Source: Tetradesmus obliquus
Taxonomy: Eukaryota > Chlorophyta > Chlorophyceae > Sphaeropleales > Scenedesmaceae
DNA: 64,000 nt
Direction of reading: 5' to 3'
Assembly (NCBI GenBank): GCA_030272155.1
Contig: CP126194.1
Location: 7,671,001 to 7,735,000 of the forward strand
Below the pieces are notes generated by a model. That model was not told the origin of the DNA, made no database searches, and saw nothing but the letters and a program-made list of their open reading frames with translations. The position numbers and the translations under genes are program-made. This document shows, piece after piece, positions 7,190 through 64,000 of this stretch; the stretch's first letter is position 1; every line of letters starts with the position of its first letter.

Positions 7190-10100
7190 CTACTTGGTCA
7201 GGCTGCGCTGCCAGTCAGCAAACAGCTTCACAATGGCCGCCACCCAGCTCTGCAGCAGGCCAGACAGGTCAGGCTGGCTGCCAGCTGAGCTGCTGCTGCT
7301 CACAGCAGAGGAGGCTGCAGCAGGCACTGCTGCTGGAGCTGCCTGCTGCTCAGAGGCAGCTGGCGCTGCTGCTGCAGCCACAGCCACAGCTACTGCCGCA
7401 GCAGCAGCCAGAGCAGGCTCGTCAACCGAGCCGCTGCCCACGCCTCCCACCTGGCTCTCAGGCAGGGGGTCCAGGTATGACTGGTCATAGCCCGCAGCAG
7501 CACCTGCGGCCTTCACTGCTGCTGCTGGTGCAATGTCCAGCCTGTCAAAGGCGCTGAGCACCTCATCTGCCTCCTCATCCTCCCCCAGGGACGCATCTGC
7601 TGGCTCAGCAGCTGCCGCGATGTCCTGCAGGCTGGGCTGCTGCAGCACAGCGCCGGCGTTGGCTGCTGCGGACGGCTCAATGGCCAGGTGGTCAAAGGCA
7701 CCCAGCGCTGCATCTGGCCGCTCATCCTCCTGCAGGAACGCCTCCTGCTCATCATCTACAGCTGCTGCAATGTCAGTGATAGTGGGCTGCTGCAGCACAG
7801 TGCCAGCATTGGCAGCTGCAGGTGGCTCGATGGCCAGGTGGTCAAACGCGCCCAGCGCCTCATCTGCTGATTCATCCTCTTCCAGCACCGCCTCCTCCTG
7901 CTGCTCCTCCTGCACTGCTGCTGCGATATCGCCCAGGTTGGGCTGCTGCAGCACTGCGCCGGCGTTGGCAACTGCTGGAGGGTCAATGGAGAGGTGGTCA
8001 AACGCGCCCAGCGCCTCATCTGCTGACTCGTCCTCCTCCAGCACTGCCTCTTCCTGCTGCTCCTCCTGCACTGCTGCAGCAATGTCGCCTAGGTTGGGCT
8101 GCTGCAGCACAGCGCCGGCGTTGGCTGCTGCAGATGGCTCAATAGCCAGGTGGTCAAAGGCACCTAGCGTCTCATCTGCTGACTCGTCCTCCTCCAGAAA
8201 AGCTTCCTGCTCATCATCCACTGCTGCTGCAATGTCGGTGATGCTGGGCTGCTGCAGCACGGCGCCGGCATTGGCTGCTGCAGGCGGCTCAATGGCCAGG
8301 TGGTCAAAGGCGCTCAGCGCTGCATCTGGCCGCTCATCCTCCTGCAGGAACGCCTCCTGCTCATCATCCACGGCTGCTGCAATGTCCTGCAGGCTAGGCT
8401 GCTGCAGCACTGCGCCAGCGTTGGCTGCTGCGGGCGCCTCAAGTGCCAGGTGGTCAAAGGCACCCAGCGCTGCATCTGTCCGCTCATCCTCTGCCAGCGG
8501 CGCTGCACCAGTGTCGCCGGCGCCCAGGGGCTCAGCCACAGCAGCGGCATTTTCGCTGAGCACTGGCAGCTGCTGCTGCTGCGCTGCTGCAGCAGCTGCA
8601 GTGGTCTCCACGAATGCCAGCGGCTCCTGCTGCAGCTGCGGCTCGTCGCTGAGGCCTGCCACACCCTCCGCTGTCAGCTGCGCGATGACCTCCTCGTAGC
8701 TCAGCGCAGCAGAGCCCTGCAGGACAGCACGGCAGGGTGGCGGAGGAGCACGGCAGCAGCAGATGCAGTTGAGCGCGCACTCATAAGGCAGGCCTCACAG
8801 CAAGTAGAGATTGAGCAAGCAAGCTACAGGCGGGATGCTACATCCTCCAGCCTTTCTGCACAACTTGGCCTAGTAGTCGTTGCCGCTCGCATGCAGGTCT
8901 CAACACTACTGCGCTGCATGAAGGTCCCCAACCATAGCACCATTCTGAATGATACTAATATCACTGCAGGACACCAGCAAACCGCACCCAGCGCCTGAAT
9001 AACACAGCAGCACAGCCAGCGCACGTCCCAGCACCAGCACACCCGAGCACTGGCATGTAGGCCATACTGCGCACCTGGCTGTCCTCGTCGCTGCCGCTGG
9101 CCCCCATCACGATGAGGCTGTCTGACTGCGCCTGGGAGCCGGCATACAACTGGTCAGACGTGTCGTAGCCACCAGCGGCAGCAGGCACGTCAGGCAGCAG
9201 CTGCGGCACCACAGCTGCTGCTGCTGCAGCAGCGCTGGCTGCGACTGGCACAGATGCCTGTTCAGCAGCAGCAGCTGTGCCGTTGGTATGGGAGGTGATC
9301 TCCTTCTTGGCCAGGGCCTGTGCCAGCAGCTTGGCGCGGCTGGGGGCCGCAGCTGCTGCGTCGCTGGGTGCAGTGCTTGAGGTCTTGGCACTGCTCCTGG
9401 TCCTGCCCCTGCGGGGCACTGCTGCTGCGGTGGCCTCTGCTGCAGCTGCAGGAGCAAGGAAACAGCAGTAGCAGTGCAACATCAACAGAGTCAGAGCGAG
9501 CTACTGAGAGCCTTGCTGACATGTGCCTGCAGTACGCATGAGTGTGTGCACGTGCTGTGAGCAAGCCAGCAAGTTGTGGCAGTCGCAGCATGTTGGCATA
9601 GGCACAAGCACTACGACCAGCACACGCTTACAAGCAGCGCATGCTGCCCTGTGTGATTACATGTAAAGGCATGTGCACGCTTCCTTACTGCTGCACCCAT
9701 CCCAGCCACGCAGCACTACTGACCTGGAGCTGGCGCAGCCTCTGGCTCCATCACGCTGCTCTTGCGGCTGGCCCTGCGGCCACGCCCCCCCTTGGCAGCA
9801 GGCACAGCCTCTGCAGCTGCTGGCGCGCTTGCAGCCGGCTCAGCTGCAGCCAGGCTGGGGTCAAGCACCGCAGACGTGCGGCTGGTGCGGCGGCTGCGCT
9901 TGGCGGGGGCTGCTGCCGCTGCAGGCACGTCCTCCGCTGCAGCTGGCGCTGCTGCTGGCAGCTCCACAAGCAGCTCTGCTGCTGCGGCGCTGGCTGCCGC
10001 GTCGGCGGTGCTGGTCTTGCGGCTGCTGCGGCGAGCACGCCTGGGGGCGGCTGCAGGCACCTCCTCCTGCTGCTGCTCCTGCAAGGGAACTGCAGCAGCT

Positions 10101-35999: not shown

Positions 36000-38900
36000 A
36001 TGAAACTCCAGAACACACTTGGCCGCAAGGCCTCTCACCAGGCACCTAGCAGCTCTGCTGCGGTGAGCACGCATGCAAGTCCGCTAGCAACACAATTCGG
36101 AATGAAGATATGTTCAATTACCGAGTCTCCTGGTTTTTTTGGGCTTGCAGGTGCCTCGCGTGGGCCAGGCGGTGCCTCGCCAGTGCCCCGTGCAGACTCG
36201 CCAGGTGCGTGAGCAGCAGGGCCACTCGCTATGCACATTCTAGTCGCTAGCAACGATCTGGTGCTGACAGGTGTGGCCTGTTCCTTGCACAGGTTGCCTG
36301 CAATGTGCAGACCCCCAGTCGCCCTAGCCTGGGTGGCAACAGTGCCAAGCCAGTGCAGATCAACCTCAGGGACGAGGACTACGATGAGGGCTTCGGCGGA
36401 GGTGAGCAGCAGGGGGACGGGCACGGCCAGGAAGCAGCAGCTGCAGCCGTGCATGCCTGTGCCATGTGGTGCTGCGCCTGGGTTTCTTGCTGTAGTAGAT
36501 CCACTGCTGCTGCTGTTGCTGCGTCCTGCTGACCGCTGCTGCTGCTGTTGTTGCAGGCGGTAGCAAGGGCCTGTTCACCAGCACCAACCCCGAGCTGCGC
36601 CGTGTGACCCCTGCCGACGTTGCCGGCCGCGTGAAGGTCAAAGTGGTGTACACCGTGCTGGAGGCGCAGTACCAGTCCGCGCTCACTGCAGCGGTGCAGG
36701 CCATCAACAGCACCAACAAGACGGTGTGCTTTGAGCTGGTGGGCTACCTGCTGGAGGAGCTGCGCGATGTGAAGAACTTTGAGGCCTTCAAGGCCGACCT
36801 GGCTGACGCCAACGTGTTCATTGGCTCCCTCATCTTCATCGAGGAGCTGGCAGAGAAGGTGCGGCAGGGGGTGCTTGCAGCAGAGGGATGTGCTGTGCAC
36901 ATCGTTGCTGTGTTTGGGCAGCAGCAGCTGACTGTGCGTGCATGTGGTGGCAGTATCTGAACATGTGCCAGCTGCGCAATGGATGTGCTGCAGTGTGGAA
37001 GCTTCCAGCAGCAGCAGGTCCTTCCATGTTGTTGCTGTGCGTGTCGCCACAGCAGGAGCAGCCGGGATCCCACTGCTCCCTCCAATCGTGCTGTCAGCTG
37101 TTGCAGGGCAGCTTCTTGCAGGGCAGCTTCTTGCAGGGCAGCAGCAGGCCCTGGCAGCTGGTTAGGCAGAGCAGCAGCATGGCTGTCTGCGGGCGACACT
37201 GCAGCAGGCAGCAGTGCTGAGCGCACTCTGCGGGTGCCATTACTGCAACACCGGCAATCAGTGCAGTCGCTGCAGCTTAGCATAGTCGGCTTGAACCCTA
37301 AACCAAAAATGTTCTATGTGTCTGTTCAGCTTGCACGCTCTGCAGAGCCTGACAGACACATACAACCTTTTTGGTTAACTTTGGCTTAACTCTACAGAGC
37401 CTGCAAGCTGAACAGACAAGAAGAACCTTTTGATTCTAATACTAAATAGACGGGCTATCACTGCTCGCAACATAGCACAGCACAGCCACACCCTTTTTTG
37501 GTCCATTTTGCTTCTCCCAGCAGGTGTATCTGTAGTTGGTTGTGCGCGCTCTCACACATGTTGTCTCCCGCTGCCGCCTGCCTCCCTGCTGCGCAGATTG
37601 TGGAGGCCGTTGACCCTGTGCGTGCCAACCTGGACGCGTGCGTGATCTTCCCCTCCATGCCCGCAGTCATGAAGCTGAACAAGCTGGGCACCTTCAGCAT
37701 GAGCCAGCTGGGACAGAGCAAGAGCCTCATCGGCGACTTCATCAAGTGAGCGCCAGGCGGGCAGCAGCAGCAGCAACTGAAGCGGCAGGCAGGGCGGCAG
37801 TAGCAGCAGCCGGGGGGCTGGGGTGTGCGGGTGGTGCGGGGGGCTGGGGTGTGCGGGTGGTGCGGGGGGCTGGGGTGTGCGGGTGGTGCTGGGGGCTGGG
37901 GTGTGCGGGTGGTGCTGGGGGCTGGGGTGTGCGGGTGGCGCTGGGGGCTGGGGTGTGCGGGTGGTGCTGGGGGCTGGGGTGTGCGGGTGGTGCTGGCGCT
38001 GCAGACTGCAGCTGTGGCGGGCCATGTTGCAAAATGCAGCTTGCACGTGCGGTGTGCAAACTGGGGCTGCGATTTAGTGGTGCTCAGCAGCTGACTGCAC
38101 GCATCAGAGGGTTCAGCAACAGATGCCCGCTCAGCTTTTGGCTGGCACCGGCATGCAGCAAATGGCTCACAAGTACTCCCCTGCCCTGCCCCTGTGCTGC
38201 CTGCCTTCCCCCCTCAGGTCTGCGCGCAAGAACAACGACAACTTTGAGGAGGGCCTGCTGAAGCTGGTGCGCACGCTGCCCAAGGTGCTCAAGTTCCTGC
38301 CATCCGACAAGGCGCAGGATGCGCGCAACTTCGTGCAGGGGCTGCAGTACTGGCTGGGCGGCAACAGCGACAACCTGCAGAACTTCCTGCTCACGCTGGT
38401 GCAGGCCTACGTGCCTGCCCTGAAGGGCGTCACCTTTGAGATCGCCGACCCTGAGCTGTTCCCGGAGGTGGGCATCTGGCACCCGCTGGCGCCCTGCATG
38501 TACGAGGACGTGAAGGAGTACCTCAACTGGTGAGCGGGGTGGCGTGGTGGTGGGCTGGGTGGGTGGGGGGGGGGCATGGGGGAGTGGGCTGGCAGGCACT
38601 GCAACGGCTGGCTGTGGACGGAGGCAGCCTGGTGTGGCTGCCGTCATGTGGCTGATTACAGGACAATATGGGCAGACACAGCAACACAGCTGTTGGCGAA
38701 TGTGATGTTGTCAGGCGCATGCAGCTCCGCTTGCCCAGCCTGCTGTTGACGGCTGAGGCAATGTCAGCAATTTTTTTTAGAGCTGCAAACTCAGCGTCTG
38801 ACCCGGTTGCTGCTGCTCCGCGTGCGTCTTCTCTTCTCCTCTGTCCTGCAGGTACGACACGCGCCGCGACCTGAAGCTGCCTGCTGACGCGCCCGTGATC

Positions 38901-41900
38901 GGGCTGGTGCTGCAGCGCAGCCACCTGGTCACCGGTGACGAGGGCCACTACAGCGGCGTGGTGGGCGAGCTGGAGGCGAGGGGCGCCAAGGTGGTGCCCG
39001 TGTTTGCTGGCGGCCTGGACTTCTCCAGCCCCGTGAAGAAGTTCTTCTACGACCCGCTGGGCAGCGGCAAGGCCTTCGTGGACACAGTGGTCAGCCTCAC
39101 GGGCTTCGCACTGGTGAGAGGCGGGGCTGGGCTGCTGGCTTGGTGCTGTTTGCAGCAGAGTTTCAGGTGCTTGCTGCATGTCTTTTGTTGTGCTGTTGTG
39201 TTGGTCAGCAGCAACCCAGGAAAACCGAAACCTGCACGAGCTGTTAAACCTCTGCACCGAATGCTGACACCTTGCTGTTGTTGCTGCTGCTGCTTGCCGC
39301 TGCCCCCAGGTGGGCGGCCCCGCGCGCCAGGACGCGCCCAAGGCCGTGGAGGCGCTGACCAACCTCAACGTGCCCTACCTGGTGTCGCTCCCCCTGGTGT
39401 TCCAGACCACCGAGGAGTGGCTGGACAGCGAGCTGGGCGTGCACCCCGTGCAGGTGGCGCTGCAGGTGAGGGGGGCGGCGGGGTGCTGGGCTGCAGGGAG
39501 GGGCAGTACAGCTGTGCATGGTATAGGTCGATGCACGTGTTGCCTGTGGGCCTGCAGCTTCACCTGCTTGTGGTGTTATCTACAGCATGTACAGTGTCTG
39601 ATGCATTGTGTGCCTGGCTGCTGTGCCTTCCCTCCCACCCCCCTGCTGCCTGCCAGGTGGCGCTGCCTGAGCTGGATGGCGCGCTGGAGCCCATCGTGTT
39701 TGCTGGCCGCGACTCCAACACCGGCAAGTCCCACTCGCTGCCTGACCGCATCGAGTCCCTGGCCAAGCGCGCCATCAACTGGGCGACGCTGCGCAAGAAG
39801 AAGAACGCCGACAAGAAGCTGGCCATCACCGTGTTCAGCTTCCCCCCTGACAAGGGCAACGTGGGCACTGCCGCCTACCTCAACGTGTTTGGCTCCATCT
39901 TCCGCGTGCTGAAGAACCTCAAGGCCTGCGGCTACGACGTGGGCAACCTGCCCGCCAACGACATGGAGCTCATCCAGGTGGGCGCTCGGGGCTGGTGATT
40001 GTGCTGGCAATGCAGCAGCTGCTTTGTTGCGGTGTGGTCGACTGGCATTAGTTTGACCAGCATGCTAGGTGCGTCTGCTTTTTGACAGCAAGCTCTCCTG
40101 CAAGGATCTGGACTGACATGCGCTGTCCCTGTCCCTCTCCCCGCCTGCCCCCGCAGTCTGTGCTGACGCAGAAGGAGGCCAAGTTCAACAGCACCGACCT
40201 CAACATCGCCTACAAGATGCCCGTGGCGGAGTACAGCCAGCTGTGCGAGTACAGCGAGGCGCTGGAGGAGAACTGGGGCAAGCCGCCCGGCCAGCTCAAC
40301 AGCAACGGCCAGGAGCTGCTCATCTACGGCCAGCAGTACGGCAACGTGTTCATCGGCGTGCAGCCCACATTCGGCTACGAGGGTGACCCCATGCGCCTGC
40401 TCTTCTCACGCAGCGCCTCGCCCCACCACGGCTTTGCCGCCTACTACACCTTCCTGGAGAAGATCTTCAAGGCAGACGCAGTGCTGCACTTTGGCACGCA
40501 CGGCTCTCTGGAGTTCATGCCCGGCAAGCAGGTGGGAAGGAGGCTGCAGCAAGCTGCAGGGAAGTGCTTTCAGCACAGGGTGCTGTTGAGTGCATGTGTG
40601 CGCAGGGCACTGCTGTTGAGTGCATGTGTGCGCAGGGCACTGCTGCAGAGCAGAGGTGCCTGTTATTGCTGTGCATGGTGTAGCTGCGCCATGTAGCTGT
40701 CTCTGTTGCATGTTCCTCCTGCTAGTGTCTAAACCGCGCTGCTCACTAACGCTGCTTGCTGCTGCGCTCCTTTCCTTGCTGCCCCCAGGTGGGCATGTCT
40801 GGCGTGTGCTACCCCGACAGCCTCATCGGCAGCATCCCCAACCTCTACTACTACGCCGCCAACAACCCCAGCGAGGCAACCATCGCCAAGCGCCGCAGCT
40901 ACGCCAACACCATCAGCTACCTGACCCCCCCTGCTGAGAACGCGGGGCTGTACAAGGGCCTCAAGGAGCTGAAGGAGCTCATCAGCAGCTACCAGGGCAT
41001 GCGCGAGAGCGGCCGCGCGGAGCAGATCTGCGCCACCATCATCGAGACGGCCCGCCAGTGCAACCTGGACAAGGTGAGGGCAGCTGTGGGTGGTGGTGGC
41101 TGCTGGGTGCAGGCACAAAGGCAATGTCGCAAGGCACTGCTTGGCATCGTTGCAGGGCGCATATGTATGATGCGGTGCTTGGTTGGGTGGTGCAGCTGAT
41201 GCATTTGGACACCTGCAGGATGCACTATTGCTCAGTTTTAATGTGCGGACTGTGTGTGTGTCCCTGCCTGCTGCTGTGTCCGCTTGCAGGATGTGGACCT
41301 GCCCGCTGACGACGCTGCCGCCAAGGACCTGACCATCGACCAGCGCGACCTGGTCATCGGCAACGTGTACCGCAAGCTCATGGAGATCGAGTCCCGCCTG
41401 CTGCCCTGCGGCCTGCACGTGGTGGGCGTGCCCCCCACTGCCGAGGAGGCTGTGGCCACGCTGGTCAACATTGCTGAGATCGACAGGCCCGACCAGAAGC
41501 CTGAGCCCATCAAGGGCCTGCCCGGCATCATGGCCGCCGCCATTGGCCGCGACATTGAGTCCATCTACCAGGGCAACAACCGCGGCGTGCTGGCTGACGT
41601 GGACCTGCTGCAGCGCATCACCGAGGCCTGCCGCGCCTGCGTGCGCGAGTTTGTGCGCGAGCGCACCGGGCTGGACGGCCGCATCGGCATCAGCTTCCTG
41701 CCCAGCCTGCTCAAGTGGACCGGCTTCTACCAGGAGCCGCTCACGCGCGCGCTGCAGGGCAGCGAGTTCAGCCGCGCCAACCGCGAGGACCTGGCCAACA
41801 CCTTCAAGTACCTGGAGTTCTGCCTGACCCAGGTGGTGCAGGACAACGAGCTGGGCGCGCTGGTGGAGGCGCTGGACGGCAAGTACACGCAGCCGGGGCC

Positions 41901-45862: not shown

Positions 45863-47647
45863 TTATTGTGCAGGTACGTCAGCCGTCAGAACCTGCTTTT
45901 GCATAGTAGCCCAGAACCTGTCCCACACGCTCGCTGTCACGTCTGCGCTGAATGTGACTCTCAGCTGCCGCAGGTATGGCAGCCCTGTCAGCAGCATCAG
46001 GCCGCGCTGCGTGATCGGCGTGAACGCCAAGTTCAGCTCTGTCAGCTGCGGCAGCTGCCCAATGGCTGCCAGGCAGGCCATGTCCCCCAGGTGGCAGGCG
46101 TGCAGGTCCAGGTGGCGCAGTTGCCTGCAGCGGCAGGCCAGCGCTGTGGCTGCCACGTCGTCCACACCCTGCGCCAGCTCAGCCAGGTCAAGGCTTGTCA
46201 GCCCGGTCAGCGTGCTGAGTGCCAGGGCGTCACCAGGCGCCAGCTGGTAGCTGTGTAGGGTGAGGTCGTGCAGTCCTGTCAGGTGCCCCAGTCTGCCACA
46301 TGCAGCGATGCCCACAAACTGCTGCCCAGGCGCCAGGGCCCAAGGAAGCCCTACGTCAACTGCATGTACCAGCAGCTCCAACTTTGTAAGACTGCAACAC
46401 GCCGCAATATTGTCTAGCATGCCTGCCAGCTCTTCAGTGTTAGGGTCTCCTTCGTTCCCTAGAACGAGCTCACGCAGCTGCGGCAACTGCGGCCAGGCTG
46501 CAGCTGTAGCAGCGGCATCTGTAAACCATGTGTAGCTCAACTCCAAATGTGTCAGGGCCGGCAGCTGCGCAAGTGGCAGCAGTGGTGCCGGCTCTGTGGG
46601 GGGCTCCTCACCGTCAACACCAAAGCTGAGGTGCTGCAACTGCTGCAGTGGCAGCACGCATGCTAAGCCGCCAGGTATCTGAAGAGATGTCAAGCATAAG
46701 CGTTGCAGCTGCGCAGGCAGCAGCAACCCCTGTGGCACCTGGTAGGCCGTGAGCTCTGTGAGCCTCGTCAGTGGCCGCATGTCCAGCGCTTGGTATGAGT
46801 CGTACACGCAGTTACCCAGGTGCAGGCACTGCAGTGGTGGCGCTGCTGCCAGCAGCTGCTGCAGCTGCTGCGCCACATCGTGCCAGTCGCCGTCCACGCT
46901 CAGGTATGTCAGCTGCCTCAGCGCTGACAGTGCTGCCAAGCAGCTGCCTGGCATGAACTGGCACCTGTGGCTGTTGTGCAGGCGCACATGCTGCAGAACT
47001 GTCAGCTGAGCCAGTGCTGCTGGCAGGCCAGGGCCAGCTGGCGGCATGCCCTCCATGTACTCCAGGTCCAGCCACGTCAGGCTGTGCGCTGGCAGTGCAG
47101 CTAGCACGCCAGCGCTTCCTGCATAGTTGCTGCTGAAGCTGGTCAGGCGGAGCTGCTGCCGCTGCTCTTGCCACTGCTGCCTGGCACTAGCTGCTGTGGT
47201 GGGACTATCTGCTGCAGTTGAGTGTAGCCCTGGTGCTGCCAGTTCTTCGCCCAATGCCAGTTGCGGCAGTGACGCCGCTGCGTGCAGGCCATGCTGCAGC
47301 AGCTGCTTAGCCACCACCCAGTGCGCCTCCCACTCCAGCCCATGCACATTGAGGCCACGCTCAGCAGGTGCTTGCACTGCCATGCCGCTCACGAGACCTG
47401 CATGCCTCGGCAGCCACTTTGCAAAGCTGCAAAGCTGTGGCAGTGTCATCTGCGGGTTCAACACGATGACTGTGTTGCATGCCGCGCACTGCTGCACTGC
47501 CTGCCTCCAGGCCTTGCATGCTCGTGCTGCTGCGCACAGCACCCGGGGGTCTGTACTGAGTTTAGGGTGCTCCAGTGCAACCTGCAGCCCTTGCAGGCTC
47601 TGTATCTGCAAGCACGGACAGGCCCACAGCAGCAGAAGCAGCAGCAT
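45863..47647 (-). CDS. Leucine-rich repeat protein with F-box-like N-terminus, ~594 aa
   Basis: A single long open frame. The N-part has LSTDPRVLCAAARACKAWRQA, resembling the end of an F-box (LxxDLL...VCRxWR). About ten irregular LRRs follow (LTWLDLEYMEG, LQHVRLHN, LTYLSVDG, LQCLHLGNC, LTHLELSYTWFTD, LRELVLGNEG, LTSLDLAEL, LRHLDLHACHLGD, LTELNLAFTPITQRG, LRQLRVTF). F-box/LRR proteins are often substrate adaptors of SCF ubiquitin ligases; that role is inferred. The start is uncertain: ATG 47647 gives a Leu-rich leader encoded partly by a CAG run, but a TGCTTGCAG acceptor at about 47613 could instead join an upstream exon. No introns are needed from there to the stop at 45863. A relic copy of its last repeat lies downstream. 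Confidence 0.8.
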   Translation of the reverse strand: MLLLLLLWACPCLQIQSLQGLQVALEHPKLSTDPRVLCAAARACKAWRQAVQQCAACNTVIVLNPQMTLPQLCSFAKWLPRHAGLVSGMAVQAPAERGLNVHGLEWEAHWVVAKQLLQHGLHAAASLPQLALGEELAAPGLHSTAADSPTTAASARQQWQEQRQQLRLTSFSSNYAGSAGVLAALPAHSLTWLDLEYMEGMPPAGPGLPAALAQLTVLQHVRLHNSHRCQFMPGSCLAALSALRQLTYLSVDGDWHDVAQQLQQLLAAAPPLQCLHLGNCVYDSYQALDMRPLTRLTELTAYQVPQGLLLPAQLQRLCLTSLQIPGGLACVLPLQQLQHLSFGVDGEEPPTEPAPLLPLAQLPALTHLELSYTWFTDAAATAAAWPQLPQLRELVLGNEGDPNTEELAGMLDNIAACCSLTKLELLVHAVDVGLPWALAPGQQFVGIAACGRLGHLTGLHDLTLHSYQLAPGDALALSTLTGLTSLDLAELAQGVDDVAATALACRCRQLRHLDLHACHLGDMACLAAIGQLPQLTELNLAFTPITQRGLMLLTGLPYLRQLRVTFSADVTASVWDRFWATMQKQVLTADVPAQ

Positions 47648-48383
47648 CCACACCACCACCACCAGCACCAGCACCAGCAGCAGCAGCAGCAGAGTTCTTC
47701 TAGTTGCAACAGAGACGGCGCGCCTGCAAGCCTTTCAATGGGTACAAAGCTGGTTAAGATAATCCTCGCATGCGTGCAGGCTGGATACAGCATGTGCTGC
47801 TGAAGTGAGCTAGGTCAAGGTGCCCCAGCCTCACCTGGTCCCCTCGCTGCACGTTTGCTCTGTTATGTGGCATAGGCATCAACGACGTTTGATTGGCTAT
47901 GTTAACTGGTTCAGAACTTGCAGCAGCGCCCATGTACTACTAACTTGACGGTGTCGAAACGCCGGTGACACAAGTCGCGAAGGACATGTCGCTGCTACCT
48001 TTGTTTTTTAAGTCTCGCAGAGACCTGTTGACAAGACCAAATGCACGAGGGTTCAGCAATCTATTCACTTACAACCGCTGCACTGACATTGGCACTGAAC
48101 ATCACTGGTGATCGACTGTTTGTCAGCAACTTGAAATGCTGTTGCCGCTGCTGTTGATAGCAGCGTTGCTGTAACATTTTGAACTGTTGTGAATGCTGTG
48201 TCAGCCTAGTCCGGACTGCGTGTTCCATGGCCAGCAATGGGGGGGGGGGGGTGTCACCAAGCAGACTGAAAAGCAGACAACACCACCAATCGCAGGGCAC
48301 GCCCGCCTAGTTACAAATGAGGCCCAATGTTGCAAACAAGGCGCTTCCAAAGCCATCAATCTGCAGCTGCAGGTGTGCCGCCT
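47648..48383. other. Intergenic: upstream of the LRR gene, downstream of the FIST gene
   Basis: Both neighbours are on the minus strand, so this holds the LRR gene promoter and the FIST 3' UTR. It includes a CAC/CAG triplet run (47650-47695) that may encode or precede the LRR N-terminus, and a G11 run near 48240. Nothing else is recognisable. Confidence 0.45.
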
Positions 48384-60401: not shown

Positions 60402-60968
60402 GGCGGCACTGCCCCAACAGCCCTGAGTGGTGCTGCTGTGCAGGTGCAACTATGAACAGAAGCTGGAACCCGATTCTACTGCCTGATCGGGGCAATGCTG
60501 CTGTTCGCAGCGACACATTATTTTCAGAGCACAAGGATCCACCAGACTACGTCGCAGTTCAGCGGGATTCAAGGCATAGAGGGCTGAACCAGCATATGCC
60601 AGTGAATTTGACCCAGGCAGCGTGATTGCTTGCTGTGTGCAGTCATTTGGTACGAAAACAAACCAAGTCAATGTTGATGGCAATTAACGCCTCCGTTAAC
60701 CACTTTGGAAACCCCAACGCGCTCTCGTCTCACGCAAGTCACACCTTGGCTATTTGCACCGTCTGTTGAATTACCTGTATGCCCTTGTGCATATACCACT
60801 GGAATCGGTTTTGATGTGTTCTTTTATCGAACTAAAATTGCCTCCAGGGCCCCACAAAGGTAGCAGTAGCAGCAGTAGCAGCAGTAGCAGCAGCAGTACA
60901 CATCAGGGGCAAGGGATCACACTGCGGAAGAGCCAGCCCAAGCGCCACCTGGCGCCCAGGCAGGCGCG
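60402..60968. other. Divergent spacer between rhomboid and dsRBD-cyclophilin genes
   Basis: About 570 bases lie between divergent start codons and so probably carry both promoters. The middle (60480-60850) is AT-rich. A run of AGTAGC/AGC repeats lies at about 60863-60897, just before the cyclophilin start. An in-frame TAG in this run precedes ATG 60969, which supports that start. Confidence 0.5.
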
Positions 60969-62879
60969 ATGGAGGCCAAGGCCGGGGTGCCCACCAACCT
61001 TTTGCACTGGCTGTACCAGACGTACACCATGCGCTGGAAGGGCGCTTTGGACATCAGCACAGTGCCTGGGCCTGACCACGCCAACAAGAGCCCGCAGTGG
61101 TGCTGCAGCCTGACAGCAGCTGGGGCAGTGGTGCGTGACAGGCAGGGCAGGCACGTCACGCTGGAGCCGCAGCAGGGCAGCGGCCAGGCCAGGTCCAAGA
61201 AGGAGGCCGAGCAGCAGGCAGCGCGCCAGGTGTACGAGGCGCTGGTGGCGGGGGGCTGGTACGACCCTGAGGCGCCACCACCGCCTAAGAAGGGTGGAGG
61301 AGTGGTGAGAGGCGAGCCAGCAGCTGAGGCATCATGCCCTGGTGGCAGCAGCTGCAGCTGTAGGTGCCCAAAGGTTCAGTGTGCAGGGTCTGCTGGGCTG
61401 TGTCCTGTGGCTGCAGCCCTGGACTAGGTACGCAGCGCAGCTGCAGGGCTGATCTGCCCATGCATCTGAGCCACTGCAGCTGCAGCCTGCTCAGATGCAA
61501 CGGAGGGGCAGGGCAGGGGCCCACAGCCTGCCTGTGCTCGCTGCACACATGTCCAAGGGTTGATGTGCGCCACGGCTGCTGTAACTGCCCTGCCGCTGCT
61601 GCTGCGCGTGCTGCCGCCCCCTGCCAGAGCCGCGCCATGAAGTTCATCACTGACAACACACCAGCCAACACAGCCAACCCGCTGGCCTACCTGGACATCA
61701 GCATAGACGGGCAGGCCGGTGCGGGCAGCAGCTGGCACAGGCACTGCAGGCAGCCCTGGCGCTGTGGTGTGGCAATATATGATGATGGCAGGCATGCGCG
61801 TGTGACGACCGCTTTGGTGCCATGCACAGCAGACAGCATCAGGTGGCCTGAAAGGTGTCGCCAGCGTCAGCAGCAGCAACATTGAGGCAGCAGGCTGTGC
61901 TCTTATGTGGCTGCACAGCTATGCGCATGCTTTCATATGATTTGCACTGCTGCTGCTGCTGCCCCTCATGATCATGCTGCTGCCTGTTGTGCTGCGCTGC
62001 TGTGCTGCAGTGGGCCGTGTGGTGCTGGAGCTGTTCCGCTACAAGAAGGGCAGCACGCTGGAGGAGCACGCGCCACTGGTGAGCTGGGGGGGGGGGGGGC
62101 TCTGCGCGGCAGGGCTGGCTGCAGTAGCAGCAGCGTTGCTGTGCTTGCCAGCGGCGCTGCAGCGTTGCGCTTGATATCATGGCTGCAATTGCGCTTGAGG
62201 CAGAAGAGAGGCAGCAGCATGCGTCACCTCAGCCATGTGCCGCTGGGTCACCTCGCCAGGCCATCACAGCATGAAATGCTTGTGGCAGTGCCTTACTGCA
62301 GCAGCCATTGGCAAGGCCCTGCCAGCTTGCTGCTGCTGCCCCCCAGCCGCACCTGCTCACTGCCTGGCTGGCTGCGTGGCGTCTCTCCTGGCTGTGTGTG
62401 CAGGCGGTGTCCAACTTTCTGGCGCTGTGCAGGGGCGTGGAGGTGGGTGGGGTGCGGCTGTGCTACGCTGGCTGCCCCTTCACGCGCATCATGGAGCGCT
62501 TCCTGCTGCAGGCTGGGGACGTGGTCAACAGGGACGGCACAGGTGCGAGGTGGGGTGTGGTGGGGGGTGGGGGAGGGGCGGAGCTGAGGGAACGTGCTAT
62601 GGTTGAGGTGGCAGCAGCGGCAGCAGCATATGCATGCATGCTGCTGCCGCTGGTCGCGTAATGTGTGAGCTCTGCATGTGTGTGCCACTAGCAGTAGGAC
62701 ACAGGCCTACAACATACATGCATGCTGTGGCTGATGGTGTCGCATGTGCGCATGATGCCAACCTGCCCAGCCTTGCTGCCCCTGCACTGGCTGCCCCCGC
62801 AGGTGGTGCGCACATCCACACTGCCCATGGCGACCACTTCCCTGACGAGGGCCTGGAGGACAGGAACTACAGGTGGGGG

Positions 62880-62910
<31 letters not shown>

Positions 62911-64000
62911 CGGCGCAGGCAGGCAACGCCAATACATGCCCCATGTGCTGTTGCGCTATGCTGGGAATTATCAATGCGAGTGCAGCGGCAACCACCACAT
63001 GCAACAACACGCTGACATGCATGTACTGGCACTGGGACTCTGTGTTGATTTGCGTCATCTGTGTGCCCCGCCCTCCCCCCCCCCCCCCCCCCAGGTTCTC
63101 GCACCCCTTCATGCTGGGTGCCGCCAACCTGGGCCTTGAGGACAGCAACGCCAGCCAGTTCATGATCACCACAGCGCCAGCGGGCCAGCTGGCGGGGCAG
63201 CACACCTGCTTCGGCAAGGTGCTGGCGGGATACGGCGTGGTCAAGCAGGTGGGTGGATTGGGTAGTGGGGGTGGGTGGGGCGGGGCGGAGGTGCTGCGCT
63301 AGCGGTGCTGGGGGTGCTGCTTGTGGTGCTGCCAGCAAGCTGATGCAGGCGATTCTACCTGATGCGACCAGGCACGCGTTGGACCAGGCACTCATTGAGA
63401 CCAGCAGCACCCAAAGCGCGCCTGGCAGCCAGACACATGATGATTTGTTGTGGCGACAGCTTGCCAAATCAGGCTTTTGAATGGCGCAGACTCATGGGGC
63501 CGGCTGCCTCCGCATCATCATTGCACCACCTCTCGCTTGTGCCTGCCTGCGACGCCCCGCCGCGCAGATTGAGGCGCTGTGTGACAGGCACAGCAGCACC
63601 CCGCCCTGCCCCGTCATCATCGAGGAGGCAGGGGAGCTGCCGCCAGGCACAGACCTGTCAGCCGTGCCGCCAGTGGCTGCTGGCGGCTGGCCGCTGTGGC
63701 CTGAGGACCAGGGCGCTCCCCCCCAGGGCGTGAGGGAGGCGGCCTTCAGGCTGGACATCGCGGCCCAGCTCAAGGAGGCAGGCAATGCGGCCTACAAGCA
63801 GGTGGGACAGCTGCACACTGCCTGGCTGCAGCAGCCCCACAGCTCTTAGCCTACTAGGCTAGTAGCCCTGGGCCCTGACCAGGGTGCCCAAAAGGCTTCT
63901 GAACACCATGATGTACTCGGCCATCACATTGTTCTGGTGGTGATCATCCTTCTTGTGTTTATACCTTGCTCTGCTGCTGCTGCTGCTGCTGCTGCCAGGG
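60969..64000 (+). CDS. dsRNA-binding domain - cyclophilin PPIase - TPR fusion (3' end beyond window)
   Basis: Exons: 60969-61304, 61628-61718, 62011-62078, 62404-62542, 62803-62872, 63095-63248, 63568-63801, and an acceptor CTGCCAG at 63992-63998 that should open the next exon at 63999. The first 364 residues are visible. Residues 7-93 resemble a dsRBM (PTNLLHWLYQTY, SPQWCCSLTAAG, then ARSKKEAEQQAARQVYEAL). Residues ~125-300 are a cyclophilin: NPLAYLDISIDGQAVGRVVL, CPFTRIMERFLLQAGDV, RDGTGG, SQFMITTA, GQHTCFGKVLAGYGVV. Of the cyclophilin A active site, Arg55, Phe60, Gln111 and His126 equivalents are kept, while Phe113 is Met and Trp121 is Gln, so cyclosporin binding may be weak. The last visible part (DIAAQLKEAGNAAYKQ) is a TPR start, as in CYP40. 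Joining a dsRBM to a CYP40-like protein is unusual. The ATG is the first after an in-frame TAG. Confidence 0.9.
62873..63094 (+). repeat. Intron with G30 tract near its 5' end and C18 tract at its 3' end
   Basis: Intron 5 of the dsRBD-cyclophilin gene opens GTGGGGGC followed by 30 G (62881-62910). It closes with 18 C (63075-63092) directly before AG. The two tracts are complementary and could pair, bringing the splice sites together. Confidence 0.9.

Follow-up and report, generated by a model that had tools for sequence, protein, structure and literature searches.

A CYP40-type cyclophilin of Tetradesmus obliquus with a probable N-terminal dsRNA-binding domain and its possible part in Argonaute loading

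Introduction

In plants, CYP40 is described as aiding the HSP90-driven assembly of RISC, and the binding of its TPR domain to an HSP90 of the MEEVD type is required in vivo (PMC6445950, in the part available). According to the accessible sections of a review, this role is independent of the PPIase activity (PMC7641896). The Arabidopsis dsRBM protein DRB1 is reported to orient duplex loading (PMC12026948), and the available portion of a survey names DRB homologues only in streptophytes (PMC7994812). In Tetrahymena, the FKBP-TPR co-chaperone Coi12p promotes siRNA loading, as stated in the excerpt of PMC4331008. How small-RNA duplexes reach an Argonaute opened by HSP90 is understood only in part, and no green-algal loading factor is named in the available parts of these sources.

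Here we describe a gene of the chlorophyte Tetradesmus obliquus (order Sphaeropleales) in which a putative dsRBM precedes a cyclophilin and a TPR domain. In the original prediction, this domain order was not known from described proteins, which agrees with a search of the open-access literature by titles and abstract starts, where a fusion of dsRBM and cyclophilin was not found. A table of multi-domain plant cyclophilins contains TPR, RRM and other partners, and the term dsRNA is absent from the main text as available (PMC7641896). In the accessible text of the rice and apicomplexan cyclophilin surveys, no dsRBM is listed.

Results

The gene and its surroundings

The window, which is the whole stretch of 64,000 nucleotides that was analysed, is part of contig C4 (7,755,718 bases); the genome searched comprised 104.7 Mb in 17 contigs. 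The gene has 11 exons, read from the splice sites, and extends on the + strand from 60969 to 65578 on the window scale. The window ends with exons 1-7 and the first 2 bases of exon 8. The gene continues for 1578 bases beyond, and its TPR part was taken from the same contig. The exon boundaries were set at GT-AG sites, which fitted 10 of 10 introns (197-325 nt), and a single open frame was obtained across the 11 exons. The conceptual product of 635 amino acids is identical to the annotated protein OEZ86_007075 (P0002) of the same contig; since this annotation was made on the same assembly, it is no independent evidence for the gene model. At the level of the predicted sequence, the order dsRBM, cyclophilin, linker and TPR on one chain was confirmed. 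The features are as follows.

60969..61304, + strand: exon 1, start codon and putative dsRBM (residues 1-112, domain about 10-93; Pfam dsrm, PDB profile, codon usage)
61068..61079, + strand: GPDH, motif GPxH of the beta1-beta2 loop (residues 34-37; exon-1 alignment)
61197..61211, + strand: KKEAE, start of helix 2 (residues 77-81; exon-1 alignment)
61305..61627, + strand: intron 1, GT-AG, phase 0, 323 nt
61628..61718, + strand: exon 2 (SRAMKF...), where the cyclophilin domain begins; contains M116
62011..62078, + strand: exon 3, cyclophilin domain (gene model)
62404..62542, + strand: exon 4, cyclophilin domain; R193 at 62485-62487 (equivalent to CypA R55) and Q201
62803..62872, + strand: exon 5, cyclophilin domain (gene model)
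63095..63248, + strand: exon 6, cyclophilin; H271 at 63201-63203 (equivalent to CypA H126); matched in the Pro_isomerase genome search
63568..63801, + strand: exon 7, end of the cyclophilin, linker and first TPR helix; K355 at 63772-63774, N359 at 63784-63786
63999..64000, + strand: start of exon 8, the first 2 bases inside the window
to 65578 (L009 3999-5578), + strand: exons 8-11, remaining TPR domain (clamp residues N415, K445, R449) and C-terminal tail

Intron 5 has a long G run (62881-62910) and a C run (63075-63092) near its two ends, which could pair in the transcript. About 70 bases 5' of the start codon, at 60860-60899, lies a CAG/TAG triplet run (GCAGTAGCAGCAG repeat), perhaps in the 5' untranslated region. 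Elsewhere in the window, an open frame at 38802-39995 (+ strand) contains a CobN/Mg-chelatase domain (Pfam E 1.7e-48) and probably belongs to a gene for a cobaltochelatase or an H-type magnesium chelatase. An open frame of 623 codons at 45866-47734 (- strand) encodes leucine-rich repeats (Pfam LRR_14, E 6.8e-13), and one of 534 codons at 7193-8794 (- strand) matched DUF7379 with 34.5 bits, barely above the cut-off of 33.

The cyclophilin and TPR domains resemble CYP40

The cyclophilin domain was recognised by Pfam Pro_isomerase with 95.7 bits (cut-off 21.7). The best match in the PDB was bovine CYP40 (1ihg, residues 123-499, E 5.7e-43), and the match covers the cyclophilin, the linker and the TPR domain, which supports the predicted CYP40-like cyclophilin with TPRs. 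The related protein P0007 was likewise best matched by bovine CYP40 (E 1.9e-40). The TPR profiles stayed under the cut-off in T. obliquus, with 14.3 of 27 bits, and came nearer in P0007, with 26.2 of 27. The linker in exon 7 has the patterns GEL..G.D and P..PED in common with bovine CYP40. The putative MEEVD-binding residues, for which the original prediction pointed to the sequence further 3', were all found: in the alignment, K355, N359, N415, K445 and R449 are the same as in bovine CYP40 (5 of 5). We take these positions to be the carboxylate clamp of CYP40 for HSP90 (MEEVD). In P0006, an Arg is found at the position of K355.

R193, Q201 and H271 align with R55, Q63 and H126 of CypA, which, together with F113 and W121, we assume to be the catalytic and cyclosporin-binding positions. 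A PPIase activity of the cyclophilin domain is therefore plausible from the aligned residues. At the positions of F113 and W121, the T. obliquus protein has M258 and Q266, and with Met and Gln there only weak binding of cyclosporin is expected; cyclosporin sensitivity appears doubtful.

Exon 1 encodes a probable divergent dsRBM

Residues 7-93 had been predicted to follow the order of a dsRBM with the C-terminal helix SKKEAEQQAA. When exon 1 was analysed alone, Pfam dsrm matched with 25.7 bits (E 1.7e-5, cut-off 23), and the PDB profiles described below likewise supported the prediction. The Pfam search with the joined protein of 635 residues upheld the cyclophilin, but the two flanking domains remained under their thresholds, dsrm with 20.2 bits and TPR with the value given above. 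The dsrm match comprises only residues 70-92, the last third of the profile, and the first half of the domain therefore rests on motif order and conservation. Exon-1 pieces of the relatives scored 25.4 bits in Scenedesmus NREL and 23.3 in the metagenome reading frame P0009, both above the cut-off of 23, and 22.7 in P0007 and 17.7 in P0006 (Scenedesmus PABB004), both below it. With the full-length proteins, P0006 (12.7) and P0007 (19.3) were below the cut-off and P0003 (23.0) was level with it. For a control, the reversed and eight shuffled exon-1 sequences were searched, and dsrm was found in 0 of 9.

A profile made from four exon-1 relatives, with T. obliquus left out, matched only 1 of the 787 open frames of the window; this was exon 1, with an E value of 5.5e-47. 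Against the PDB, a 4-row profile of exon 1 gave 21 rows with an E value of at most 10; dsRBM proteins account for 18 of them and the ribosomal protein eL28 for 3 (best E 0.0031). With a 5-row profile, for which the rows P0007 and P0009 were trimmed to their better-matching part, 26 of 30 rows were dsRBM proteins as assigned by molecule name, many of them repeats of a few proteins. The best was Loquacious (E 7.6e-5), and RNase III, Staufen, RDE-4, PKR, MLE, TARBP2, RNA helicase A and DGCR8 were also present. The remaining 4 rows were complement C1q, matching residues 15-68. The matches to dsRBMs of the PDB fell within residues 48-110, mostly 60-95, and the proposed first helix and first strand of the domain rest on motif order, the GPDH loop and conservation.

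We take the GPxH loop between beta1 and beta2 and the KKxAK start of helix 2 to be the canonical motifs of a dsRBM. GPDH or GPEH was observed in 4 of 7 rows of the exon-1 alignment and GEGH in P0006; the motif is lacking in two rows with differing predicted N-termini, P0007 and P0009. K77, K78, A80 and E81 are invariant in 7 of 7 rows, and in the helix start KKEAE a Glu replaces the third Lys of KKxAK. NCBIfam gave only weak matches, far under the cut-offs; for exon 1, the dsRBM end of the RNase III model matched with 19.5 of the 166 bits required. The second Pfam match to exon 1, Dicer_dimer, was weak and below the cut-off (E 0.11; 0.03 and 0.19 with relatives). Taken together, exon 1 very probably encodes a divergent dsRBM, as judged from motifs and profiles.

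The join of exon 1 to the cyclophilin is conserved in relatives

Three protein searches, with candidates preselected by shared words, yielded 8, 4 and 8 proteins, 8 overall. The exon-1 sequence and the cyclophilin were found on one chain in 6 of the 8 (P0002-P0007). P0002 and P0003 are both from T. obliquus, and P0004 and P0005, which come from one strain with a likely diploid genome (PMC7955037, accessible part), may be alleles. P0005 begins inside exon 1, and P0007 is without the first part of exon 1. In P0009, an exon-1-like sequence is followed in the same frame by a cyclophilin stretch about 350 residues on. Among viral contigs, 33 pattern matches contained 0 relatives; among prokaryote genomes, 59 pattern matches contained 1. 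A Bathyarchaeota MAG (L051 5001-5393) encodes a cyclophilin-like stretch with 27% identity to residues 142-298.

Exon 1 (112 amino acids) joins exon 2 in phase 0. The in-phase splice from exon 1 to the cyclophilin and on to the start of the TPRs had been predicted, and the gene model gives the same exon 1-2 junction. The identical join, with no insertion or deletion, is present in P0002, P0003 and P0005; in P0006 and P0007, a single additional residue lies a short way ahead of the junction, and P0004 carries an insertion of about 40 residues at the junction itself. In the alignment of the relatives, conserved residues flank the junction on both sides. The residue at M116 of exon 2 is a Thr in both P0006 and P0007. 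Since these two proteins also lack any other Met in the first half of the cyclophilin, both, as annotated, need the upstream exon. The codon score of exon 1 was 0.40 in its own frame and negative in the other five frames, which are the cleaner control. For 48 overlapping intron pieces it was at most -0.25, a result that is partly built in, these introns having been used for the background table as well.

The annotated T. obliquus product terminates with SGLEQR, and another frame (L009 5458-6030, which is 65458-66030 on the window scale) encodes the tail of the relatives, ending YGDGALGAVMRKVPL. This longer C-terminal tail, with YGDGAL near its end, was found in P0003, P0005, P0006 and P0007. 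In the assembly analysed here, the tail is out of frame, either by a real change or by an assembly error.

Possible partners in the genome

At the HSP90 locus L049, one frame ends with ...SRMEEVD and a stop. An exon on contig C10 has Argonaute 10 as its best match (E 5.3e-42); further exons with Piwi domains were located on C10 and C1, and three loci of the genome matched RNase III, of the Dicer or another type.

The Pro_isomerase search counted 19 other cyclophilin loci. A second cyclophilin with TPRs was not detected in the genome with the window protein, bovine CYP40, TPR_2 (150 of 218 candidates scored) and the TPR part of P0007 as queries, a weak search since neither TPR_2 nor the TPR portion of bovine CYP40 detected the TPR domain of the gene itself. 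When 4 of the 19 other loci were analysed with their flanks by tblastn (L046, L047, L048 and L050), no TPR was found beside the cyclophilin. A clear paralogue of exon 1 was not found in the genome; the next best match (E 0.03) contained 3 stops. PF00035 gave 0 matches over the genome at E 0.001 and also missed exon 1 itself, and is therefore uninformative on other dsRBM genes.

Discussion

We propose that the protein is a HSP90 co-chaperone of the CYP40/SQUINT type that has gained an N-terminal dsRBM and brings small-RNA duplexes to an HSP90-held Argonaute, and we give this reading a probability of roughly 0.4. The TPR clamp would hold cytosolic HSP90 by its MEEVD tail. The client would be contacted by the cyclophilin domain, and the dsRBM would keep the small-RNA duplex close to the HSP90-opened Argonaute. 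One chain would then do the work that is split between CYP40 and DRB1-type proteins in land plants. The fusion, as a set of conserved gene models, the clamp residues, and an Argonaute and an HSP90 frame ending with MEEVD in the genome are supported by the sequence. Binding of dsRNA and HSP90, with Argonaute as the client, is what we infer for the protein.

Several observations speak against this co-chaperone and duplex function. The dsrm scores are below the cut-off in the full-length proteins of T. obliquus, P0006 and P0007 and level with it in P0003, and helix 2 has a Glu in place of its third basic residue. For the most part, the profile matches cover only the C-terminal third to half of the dsRBM. 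The TPR profiles are below their cut-offs in T. obliquus, and P0006 has the Arg at K355. For the Tetrahymena co-chaperone, loading in lysate did not require the TPR (PMC4331008, available excerpt). More tentative is the further proposal that the protein is a single-chain co-chaperone of RISC loading, in which the duplex-holding and HSP90-recruiting steps are fused in this green-algal lineage, where the available portion of the survey names no DRB1 (PMC7994812); it is the only CYP40-like protein detected in the genome by the weak searches above.

The client range of CYP40 is broad, and these proteins serve many clients. The dsRBM might tether the co-chaperone to RNA for a purpose other than Argonaute loading, the folding of HSP90 clients on particles that contain dsRNA, such as RNA helicase or mRNP complexes or those of a dsRNA stress or antiviral response. 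Nothing in this analysis links the gene to silencing, and cyclophilins with an RRM are described as working in splicing and transcription (PMC7641896, accessible sections). We regard such a function as unlikely, as the role described for plant CYP40 is in RISC assembly, where the substrate is an RNA duplex (PMC6445950, part available).

Some dsRBMs bind Dicer or dimerise, and the domain might, by docking, bring the co-chaperone to a protein of RNA silencing such as Dicer or Argonaute and hold no RNA itself. The Glu at the third basic position of helix 2 and the weak Dicer_dimer match would fit a docking function. However, the rows of Tetradesmus and Scenedesmus NREL retain GPxH and the KK pair, which are expected on the surface of an RNA-binding dsRBM, and we consider a pure docking domain improbable.

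That exon 1 is a separate upstream gene or an artefact of gene prediction, with the cyclophilin starting at M116, would fit the in-frame ATG of exon 2 at a plausible start, the frame of exon 1 that stays open past the splice site until the stop at 61425-61427, the extra residues of P0004, and P0008, transcript-derived by its name, which is without exons 1-3, but this is rejected as very improbable because the junction is conserved in 5 other annotated proteins and in the residues on either side, the start codon is absent in two relatives, and the codon usage of exon 1 is that of a coding sequence.

That a conserved protein combines a dsRNA-binding domain with a co-chaperone of the kind active in plant loading suggests that the holding and recruiting steps may be physically coupled. 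Such a coupling of duplex holding and HSP90 recruitment could be tested directly on this single gene.

Among the known systems, DUS16 of Chlamydomonas is also a dsRBD protein in a chlorophyte small-RNA pathway. It differs in having an RNA-binding motif beside the dsRBD and acts as the DCL3 partner in precursor processing; in the available part of the source, it is not described as a co-chaperone (PMC12026948). The RRM cyclophilins CYP59 and CYP33/PPIE likewise combine an RNA-binding domain and a cyclophilin on one chain, but the domain is an RRM, the accessible sections name no TPR, and their roles in transcription or splicing are nuclear (PMC7641896). Tetrahymena Coi12p shares PPIase-fold domains and a TPR, binds HSP90 and promotes siRNA loading, whereas it has two FKBP domains instead of the cyclophilin and, in the excerpt available, no reported dsRBM (PMC4331008). 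The dsRBM is shared with RISC-loading proteins such as Loquacious, TARBP2, RDE-4 and plant DRB1; Loquacious was the top match of the profile, with TARBP2 and RDE-4 also represented. Unlike these, the T. obliquus protein shows one dsRBM, located on a co-chaperone, and no other RNA-silencing domain by Pfam. The closest likeness is to CYP40/SQUINT/PPID (bovine 1ihg; Arabidopsis CYP40), with which it shares the cyclophilin, the GEL..G.D and P..PED linker and the TPR domain with five clamp residues. It differs from bovine CYP40, at 34% identity, in the extra N-terminal dsRBM of about 110 residues and an 8-residue insertion after VVLELF, and relatives of the T. obliquus protein carry the longer, acidic C-terminal tail. 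With its extra N-terminal dsRBM, the protein is a variant and not a standard two-domain member of CYP40. In conclusion, the dsRBM-cyclophilin-TPR protein is filed as a new form of CYP40 and not as a separate new type.
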